Of a DNA stretch of 64,000 bases, positions 12,358-13,650 are shown one piece after another. This stretch comes from Pseudomonas svalbardensis (GTDB lineage Bacteria; Pseudomonadota; Gammaproteobacteria; Pseudomonadales; Pseudomonadaceae): assembly GCF_030053115.1 (NCBI RefSeq), contig NZ_CP125619.1, positions 2,109,001 through 2,173,000 of the forward strand, given 5' to 3'. How positions within the stretch are numbered: position 1 is the stretch's first letter; every line of letters starts with the position of its first letter. The position numbers were made by a program, and so were the translations under genes. Below the pieces are notes generated by a model. It ran no database searches and was not told where the DNA came from. It worked only from the letters and a program-made list of their open reading frames with translations.

Positions 12358-12477
12358 CACCGCGTCGCGTCCATCGCGAGCAGGCTCGCTCCCACAAGGT
12401 TTTGTATTGAATGCAAATCTTGTAACCACTGAAGATCAACTGTGGGAGATTCTATGTTGCAGGGCAACCCCGCAACC

Positions 12478-13413
12478 TCAGGCCGGGTGGTATTCGCTCT
12501 GATTTTTCATCAGGGCAAATGCCACCCGGCAGAGTTTCCGGGCAAGGGCCACCAAGGCCTGGGTTTTCGAGAAGCCTCTTGCCAAATACGACTCGTAAAA
12601 CGGTTTCCATTTAGCTGAGCGACAGGCTGCCATTGCGGCGTTGTAAGCCAACCGGCGGACTTCCGGATCCCCTTTTTTTGTCAGGTGCCGGGGGCCGTTC
12701 TTCTTCCCGGAGTCATCGACCGTAAGGTCCATCCCTAGAAACGCGATGAACGCATCACTATTGGCAAAATCACCGCGCATAAAGGTCGTCGCCAACCCGG
12801 TTGCAGTCAGTTCGCCAACCCCTTCGATGGCTTTGCAGCGGTCGATATTCTCTTCAATACCCGCCTCTTTGCTGACCTTGCGCAGCAGTTTCTGAATGGC
12901 CTGATCCGCTTGCTTGAAGGCCTTTTGCTGGGCGCTCTGTACTTTCTTCAACAAGGGTTCATTGGCCCAGCTCAGCATCAGACCGGCATGGTTCTGGATC
13001 AGCGTTGCACGTCTGTGGAGCAGGCTTTTCAGCGAGGTGTAGGCCTTGGGTGGTGGGCTCCAGATCCGCAGTCCGTCTTGTTCGTTCGTCAAATAACGCG
13101 CCAGCAGACGGGCATCGCAGGGATCGTTCTTGGCTCGTTGGCCGATGCCGCGGCGATAGTTGCTCACCCGATAAGCATCCACGACATAGACCTGGTGCCC
13201 CATCGCATGGGCCAGCTCGACGGTGTCCAGGTGGTAGATGTTGGTGGCTTCAACGGCGATAGCGCTTTGGGCGGGCAATGTTTTAAGCCAGCGTTTGAGG
13301 GCTGTTCGATCGTTCTTGATGGTGTCAGTGGTTAGCCGGTCGGAGCGATAGACAACTATTTCGGTCTTGGCGATATCGACGCCAACCACCGTCTGCGAAG
13401 TAAGGATTGTCAT
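12478..13413 (-). CDS. IS110-family transposase (DEDD recombinase)
   Basis: The 311-residue protein has the DEDD_Tnp_IS110 N-terminal RuvC-like domain: VGVDIAK (Asp near residue 13), AIAVEAT (Glu near 55) and KNDPCDARLLA (two Asp near 96-99). The C-terminal Transposase_20 domain follows, with EGVGELTATGLATTF, an HhH-like element, and the region carrying the conserved serine. The frame is intact, so the element may be active. It works with an RNA encoded in the adjacent noncoding end in well-studied relatives. Orientation is opposite to the flanking gntR gene. Confidence 0.93.
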   Translation of the reverse strand: MTILTSQTVVGVDIAKTEIVVYRSDRLTTDTIKNDRTALKRWLKTLPAQSAIAVEATNIYHLDTVELAHAMGHQVYVVDAYRVSNYRRGIGQRAKNDPCDARLLARYLTNEQDGLRIWSPPPKAYTSLKSLLHRRATLIQNHAGLMLSWANEPLLKKVQSAQQKAFKQADQAIQKLLRKVSKEAGIEENIDRCKAIEGVGELTATGLATTFMRGDFANSDAFIAFLGMDLTVDDSGKKNGPRHLTKKGDPEVRRLAYNAAMAACRSAKWKPFYESYLARGFSKTQALVALARKLCRVAFALMKNQSEYHPA

Positions 13414-13429
13414 GACGAATCCTCGGAGC

Positions 13430-13612
13430 TAGGGTTTAAGAGCTTGTCGGGGTCTACCGTTGCGCTGGCTTGCCTCTATCGTCGGTTTTACCGATGAATT
13501 CCTTATCGGCGCTTTGGGTAGAAGGGGCGGGATGAGAAGTCTCCCACGGTCTGTACTGGTCAGAGTCAGAATCGAGCTTTTAGTCCCGCCCACCCCTTCA
13601 AGTCTAAACATA
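13430..13612 (-). ncRNA. predicted IS110 bridge RNA
   Basis: The noncoding DNA before the transposase folds on the minus strand into two loops. Loop one: an eight-base stem GGGCGGGA/TCCCGCCC (plus-strand 13584-13591 and 13525-13532) closes an internal loop topped by a TCTGACT/AGTACAGA hairpin. The 5' side of the internal loop holds GCTCG (13573-13577) and the 3' side GTGGGAG (13541-13547). These match the left and right halves of the REP target beside the CT core. Loop two: stem GGTAGA/TCTACC type (13517-13522, 13453-13458) holds ATAAG (13502-13506) and ATAGAG (13474-13479), which can pair with the element's own ends. This is my own manual fold. Confidence 0.68.
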
Positions 13613-13650
13613 CAAGCGAGCCTGCTCGCGAAGGCGATCTGACAGGCAAT

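Follow-up and report, generated by a model that had tools for sequence, protein, structure and literature searches.

A predicted bridge RNA in the left end of an IS110-type element of Pseudomonas svalbardensis, with guides that match its REP target

An IS110-type element whose copies all lie within REP sequences raises the question of how the insertion site is chosen. The window analysed here, a stretch of 64,000 nucleotides from Pseudomonas svalbardensis (contig NZ_CP125619.1, positions 2,109,001 to 2,173,000), holds one such copy, and an original prediction from the letters alone had proposed that its noncoding end encodes a bridge RNA programmed for the REP. IS110 bridge RNAs, with their loops and covariation, were described in 2024 (PMC11208160, PMC11208158, PMC11187229), and Pseudomonas REPs had been reported as insertion sites of ISPpu9 and ISPpu10 by 2006 (PMC1525189). 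Moreover, the legend of Extended Data Fig. 10c (PMC11208160) lists ISPpu10 with five other elements as shown with their guides, target and donor. In view of these earlier publications, the bridge RNA of the window would belong to a known kind, and the points of interest are its guides, the choice among REP variants, and its relatives.

The element, its copies and its relatives

The element occupies positions 12447..13616 of the window (1170 bp including both CT cores; this and every feature below lies on the minus strand) within a REP, and its limits are common to the nine full copies of its own genome. Comparison of copies places the CT cores at 13615..13616 (left end) and 12447..12448 (right end). 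Outside them are the halves of the interrupted REP, namely GCGAGCAGGCTCG at 13617..13629, which includes the left target AGGCTCG (13623-13617), and CCCAC at 12442..12446, the right target. Inside them are the termini, ACATAGAAT in the right end (12449..12457), taken as the left donor, and TGTATGTT in the left end (13607..13614), taken as the right donor. All nine copies lie between GCTCG-CT and CT-CCCAC, within a REP and in a single orientation relative to it. Remnants of the ends of the same element, with the rest absent, were also seen at G000 positions 967313-967403, 2477558-2477605 and 3396663-3396688 (L010-L012). A tblastn search of a plasmid collection at 1e-40 gave no match to the element.

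The recombinase gene (12478..13413) encodes 311 amino acids with matches to PF01548 (E 1.3e-19) and PF02371 (E 5.4e-14), as well as to the recombinases of IS621 (8wt6, E 2.3e-18) and ISCro4 (9t56, E 1e-18). Residues D13, E55, D97 and D100 and the serine S235 align with identical residues in IS621 and ISCro4, and this DEDD recombinase with its conserved serine places the element in the IS110 family. A long noncoding left end of 201 nt and a short right end of 29 nt are the arrangement of the IS110 group. The subterminal inverted repeat is 6 bp long (AACATA, 12458-12453, in the right end with TATGTT, 13612-13607, in the left), between the 2-3 bp of the IS110 group and the 7-17 of IS1111. This repeat (TATGTT/AACATA or TATGGT/ACCATA) was observed to covary at one position, with T-A in 13, G-C in 26 and C-C in 3 elements (n=42).

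For comparison, relatives with recombinases 44-100% identical were collected, giving 97 insertion sites from 40 Pseudomonas genomes, the own genome included. A match was found in 58 of 298 genomes, of which 40 were used; the remaining 18 held fragments or remote matches, and 12 of these were searched again. Apart from the own genome, one to four sites were taken per genome rather than all copies. The sites derive from 106 elements after dropping L025-L030, L031 and repeats of one site within a genome, and counts for the right target guide stand on 96 sites, as L112 lacks a right end. Of 43 distinct left ends, 40 were aligned, leaving out the near-copies L078 and L086 and also L047, which lacks the second loop. 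That element (genome G091) has the donor-binding loop deleted from its left end and is probably dead. A scan of genome contigs yielded 6 further loci in two named strains, which look like copies of the G011 and G216 elements and were kept out of the counts.

Target guides and the choice of site

The first internal loop of the noncoding end holds two segments that abut the core in the target. As the original prediction had it, GCTCG (13577-13573) is identical to the five bases directly left of the CT core (flank 13621-13617), and GTGGGAG (13547-13541) is complementary to CTCCCAC, the core plus right side (12448-12442). The left match had been drawn too short, for the left target guide (LTG) reads AAGCTCG (13573..13579), and in 8 of the 9 genomic copies the flank next to the core on its left repeats all seven bases; the window copy, in AGGCTCG, agrees at 6/7. 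The right target guide (RTG) is GTGGGAG (13541..13547), which would pair with core and right target together.

Covariation of the guides with the flanks in relatives, on which the prediction had been staked beforehand, was found. Among all offsets in the noncoding end, that of the LTG gave the best agreement with the left flank (mean 6.0/7 identities in 40 genomes; 3.35 for the runner-up; 1.8 as the mean of offsets). Over the 40 genome representatives, 240 of 280 positions agree, against 197±5 for shuffles, and the 16 distinct LTGs give 92/112 against a null of 66.6±4.0; in either case 0 of 20,000 shuffles reached the observed value. Most of this signal comes from positions -6 and -3 (33/40 and 35/40, with nulls of about 20). 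Counted by site, the LTG matches at 7/7 in 47 of 97 and at six positions in 34, which makes 81 with six or seven, or 86 with wobbles counted. Three sites of G128 and one of G005 need a one-base shift to fit, and two G214 sites, one G186 site and the sole G091 site agree poorly. In L057 (genome G186), the left flank repeats the start of the right flank (CCCACATTTGGTAG), as after a tandem or rearranged insertion.

In 91 of 96 sites, all seven bases of the RTG are complementary to the core and right flank. In the lineage of G094 (L101-L103), all 3 sites have CCTAC as right flank and the RTG reads GTAGGAG. The five exceptions are L038; L064, where a CCTAC flank meets the common RTG GTGGGAG; and three sites of G080, with GTGAGAG despite CCCAC in 3/3. 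Thus, as in IS621-type bridge RNAs, the first internal loop matches the target on both strands, its guides abut the core, and they covary with the target. Pairing of the LTG with the core dinucleotide, as in IS621, does not hold here: the core C is matched in 9/40 representatives and the core T in 33/40.

Shuffling of flanks leaves the relatedness of the elements in these nulls, and for this reason two tests were added. The first concerns the choice among REP variants. Three classes were counted in the own genome, AAGCTCG (64), AGGCTCG (490) and AAGCCCG (81), 635 in total; with a longer REP pattern, empty REPs of the form GAGCNNGCTCGCTCCCAC number 563, of which 62 have AAGCTCG. Eight of the nine own-genome insertions lie in AAGCTCG REPs, the variant spelled by the LTG (binomial P 9e-8), and the ninth, in AGGCTCG, is the window copy. 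The element is therefore not tuned to the commonest REP, and the phrase of the original prediction that it is "programmed for the common REP" has to be given up: the commonest here is AGGCTCG, with 490 instances, and the guide spells a minority variant that is home to nearly all copies. For the wider REP-background test, 28 genomes were searched, 24 entered the script, and for 17 of them the LTG belonged to one of the three classes counted, with 6 off-class sites set aside. In these 17 genomes and 47 sites, the LTG and the site match exactly at 35 against 22.2 expected, and 0 of 200,000 simulations was as high. Genomes G290 and G205, with LTG AGGCTCG, have 0/5 exact matches, all 5 sites being AAGCTCG and one wobble off. 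The other mismatching genomes are G139 (0/1), G100 (1/3, the other two a wobble off), G214 (1/2), G125 (2/3) and G111 (2/3).

The second added test compares recombinases that are about 90% identical and have different guides. Guides and sites differ in agreement between G124 (one site) and G010 (two) on the one hand and G039 and G160 (two each) on the other. Counter-examples are G205 (98-99% identical to G160 and G039) and G290 (93-94%), which bear another guide at the same sites. On these comparisons, we regard the target guides of the noncoding end as real.

Relatives outside the genus extend the picture. An order-wide search found a match in 11 of 390 genomes, the own included. By eye, guide and flank are both AAGCACG in L122 and both AGGCAAG in L121, with the core paired too in the latter. 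In three sister copies of L121 (L132, L137 and L141), guide AAGCAAG faces flank GGGCAAG (5/7), L123 has guide AGGCAAG against flank AAGCAAG, and L125 has guide CGCTACG with flank CGCTGCG and a right flank of CACATG. The LTG of L124 fits only with a gap; so does that of L126, whose site is TTCGACAAG-CT-CAGTGCGAAC and which has ACTGAG at the place of the RTG. Outside the genus, then, the donor guides are mostly kept and the target guides differ, and since the guides follow other flanks there, the lineage has apparently changed its target on more than one occasion. In addition, distant IS110 elements with at least 2 copies in G266, G078, G113, G041, G302, G486 and G164 have left flanks ending in CC before the CT core, several of them palindromic by eye. 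These are probably other repeat-targeting bridge systems.

Donor guides, handshake bases and RNA structure

The second loop was originally thought to pair with the element's own ends through ATAAG and ATAGAG, and this part of the prediction did not survive alignment. Of 40 left ends, 15 have ATAAG, 24 have ATAAA and one has another sequence, and 9 retain ATAGAG against 18 with ATAGGA; both were rejected for being variable, whereas GAAT and CAAG of the same loop are constant in 40/40 and match the ends of the element. The latter two lie on opposite sides of the loop, GAAT matching the right end AGAAT-CT and CAAG the left end CT-TG. The donor guides are thus more likely GGAAT at 13498..13502 (LDG, in the same sense as the right end) and GCAAG at 13469..13473 (RDG), of which CAAG would pair with CTTG at the left end and the G beyond would stand opposite T.

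Distant elements point the same way. In nine groups at 25-29% identity and two single loci, the counterpart of the LDG, ACGGTATC or ATGGTATC, equals their own right ends, GACGGTAT-CT or GATGGTAT-CT, and in L126 an LDG of GGAGC is coupled with the right end AGAGC. The second loop therefore matches the donor ends, with covariation by eye over four kinds of right end (AGAAT, AGAGC, ACGGTAT and ATGGTAT). CAAG follows the LDG in 17/17 relatives outside the main set.

The right guides of IS621 are each followed by a base that, once strands have been exchanged, pairs with the other DNA (PMC11208158), and covariation of this handshake has already been published for IS110 orthologues (PMC11208158). In the window, C at 13468, behind the RDG, is by comparison with relatives the handshake partner of the G that precedes the core in the target. 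Among the 40 representatives, the base behind CAAG and the target base are C/G in 36 and G/C in G080, stand as U against C in G004 and G139 (3 sites, the mismatches of the main set), and are absent in G091. Outside the main set, the two are complementary in 17/17 relatives (C/G in 7, G/C in 10), with G101 having C/G where its relatives have G/C. Of two candidate segments in each of G302 and G486, the second (3'-side) was used; the first would not pair. By analogy with IS621, A at 13540, behind the RTG and invariant in alignment A1, may play the handshake role towards the T that precedes the core in the donor. The corresponding base of L126 is unfit for its donor C (by eye).

Folding predicts a target-binding loop closed by an outer stem (GAAGGGGTGGGCGGGA, 13584..13599, with TCCCGCCCCTTC, 13521..13532), in which a hairpin (TCTG...CAGA, 13550..13570) separates the two target guides; at one of its pairs, C-G replaces U-A in 4/40 rows. 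The predicted donor-binding loop has a GCGC/GCGC stem (13509..13512 and 13462..13465) and a hairpin of its own (ATCGGTAAAACCGACGAT, 13478..13495). Minimum-energy folding as sole proof of this structure was set aside as not decisive, the single-sequence fold having only a slight advantage over shuffles (z -1.33), 19 of 200 of which did as well. A much better fold that hides the guides had been named as a danger to the prediction, and here the outcome is mixed. The lowest-energy form pairs 4/7 LTG and 6/7 RTG bases within the first loop, and all guides can be opened for 5.8 kcal/mol; folding programs thus leave some room for such hiding. Whether the guides are free or held open, the window RNA folds with its outer stem, inner hairpin and second stem.

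When 27 left ends were folded to lowest energy, all 27 formed a first stem of 9 pairs or more, 25 (by script) the guide hairpin and 21 the GCGC/GCGC second stem. Of the two hairpins missed by the script, that of L044 reflects a misplaced anchor and is present in the fold, and L052 lacks one. RNAalifold on the alignment gave 22 pairs, 3 with changes on both sides, a low number that we put down in part to misalignment of the first stem between subgroups; the helices were therefore read from the single folds of the 27 left ends, with guides free and held open. A covariance model built from 40 left ends, that of the window included, matches 13456..13616 at 168 bits (the window copy being among the training sequences) and finds exactly nine places in the own genome, which are the nine copies. 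Six loci from other genera are also found, with E-values between 2e-22 and 0.001, and none of the 25-29% relatives given to the model. An Rfam search gave no match to a bridge RNA family and three sub-threshold matches, all outside the RNA.

The segment CCCCGACAAG (13443..13452) is partly complementary to CTTGAAGGGG (13602-13593), and weak covariation suggests a possible closing helix. Between the two, 376 of 440 cells are paired, against a maximum of 240 in slid versions, and the mean score is 24.4 against 22.7±0.3 for swapped partners. Double changes occur at two positions within the counted stretch, in one sequence each, so few that the helix is kept as a lead. It is possible that the segment at 13452-13443 closes the whole RNA or, instead, competes with the first stem. 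Within the same two stretches, CTTG..GGG and CCC..CAAG were seen to be complementary in 40/40 left ends, with up to 15 bp in L052.

A 5' stem-loop before the two loops is predicted in L121, L122, L124, L125 and L126 and is missing in the clade of the window; the Pseudomonas clade keeps what looks like a remnant of its 3' arm. Seven of the nine genomic copies (L003-L009) have six bases fewer in the target-loop hairpin (window 13570-13550), with one of two CTCTGA repeats. Given that the nearest relatives carry the longer hairpin, this deficit looks like a loss in copies that are still spreading.

Mechanism, rival explanations and known systems

The 5' noncoding end almost certainly encodes a bridge RNA, as judged from these comparisons, with a first loop for the REP target and a second for the abutted ends of a circular element. 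The first loop would recognise the REP on both strands, the LTG AAGCTCG left of the core and the RTG GTGGGAG over the core and right side, and the second loop would recognise the abutted circle ends through GGAAT and GCAAG. The recombinase would then join circle and REP at the CT core, and the base behind each right guide would pair with the other DNA after strand exchange. In this scheme, formation of the circle, transcription, binding by the recombinase and catalysis are modelled on IS621. The limits of the element, its target choice, the covariation of guide and target, and the matches of donor guides and handshake bases come from the sequences of the element and its relatives themselves.

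Could the recombinase itself read the REP, the guide-like segments being a captured piece of REP or a product of chance? The elements of the main set do all lie in REP-like sequence, few sites excepted, REPs are abundant in these genomes, and G205 and G290 share their sites with relatives that bear another guide. Capture or chance would, however, have to account for two separate pieces that flank a hairpin and match opposite strands, and for their change with the flank in relatives; moreover, the other recombinases that are about 90% identical have different sites, in line with their guides. We consider recognition of the REP by the protein very improbable. Still less probable is a chiefly regulatory role for the noncoding end, as an antisense-controlled 5' leader of the recombinase mRNA. 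There is precedent in ISPpu9, for which a 244-nt leader with antisense and sense small RNAs has been described (PMC8450116), and in the present element pairing is possible between the 5' arm of the first stem and a segment that precedes the gene. A leader of this kind gives no reason to expect loop bases that covary with flanks, and it is compatible with a bridge RNA, as both roles can coexist.

For the target loop, the original proposal of a bridge RNA, its two guides lying directly against the core, is very likely correct; covariation supports it strongly, and so do the REP variant chosen by the element in its own genome and the differently targeted relatives. Its closest described model is IS621, with which the element shares a DEDD recombinase with the same catalytic residues, a CT core, an RNA in the left end, a first loop for the target and a second for the donor, guides on the same sides and strands, and the handshake base (PMC11208160, PMC11208158). 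GCAAG with G opposite T also resembles the discontinuous RDG described for IS621 (PMC11208158). Unlike IS621, the clade of the window lacks the 5' stem-loop and its LTG mostly mismatches the core C; the recombinase, at 311 aa, is remote in sequence (E 2.3e-18), and the REP is a different one.

By published description, ISPpu10 and ISPpu9 of P. putida KT2440 likewise belong to IS110, lie in Pseudomonas REPs and have 2-bp direct repeats (PMC1525189), and by the figure legend a bridge RNA with target and donor guides was predicted for ISPpu10 (PMC11208160). ISEc21 and ISMch6 (seekRNA) resemble the element in having an IS110-group RNA upstream of the gene and in natural redirection through changed guide bases (PMC11187229); they differ in their targets and in a longer transposase, of 358 aa in ISEc21. 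ISPa11, of the IS1111 group, is described with a Pseudomonas REP target and an RNA guide as well (PMC11187229), but its RNA lies downstream of the gene, with reversed guide order and long subterminal inverted repeats. Among the titles listed by literature searches, none dealt with guide drift or a missing 5' stem-loop in the Pseudomonas lineage, which is weak evidence of absence.

We tentatively propose, at somewhat less than even confidence, that the Pseudomonas REP lineage carries a reduced bridge RNA that has lost its 5' stem-loop and perhaps gained a long-range closing helix with the stretch that precedes the recombinase gene. In this lineage, the target guide would drift with the REP of the host while the donor guides stay fixed, giving a natural series of reprogrammed RNAs, with whole retargeting outside the genus.

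For the family, these elements provide an independent natural test of the bridge-RNA model: 8/9 insertions in one genome match the guide, and among relatives a changed guide comes with a changed site and mostly with unchanged donor guides. The comparison also corrects the donor guides suggested by the hand fold. Finally, the compact RNAs without a 5' stem-loop, and the first hairpin that is six bases shorter in 7/9 copies, may offer starting points for smaller bridge RNAs.
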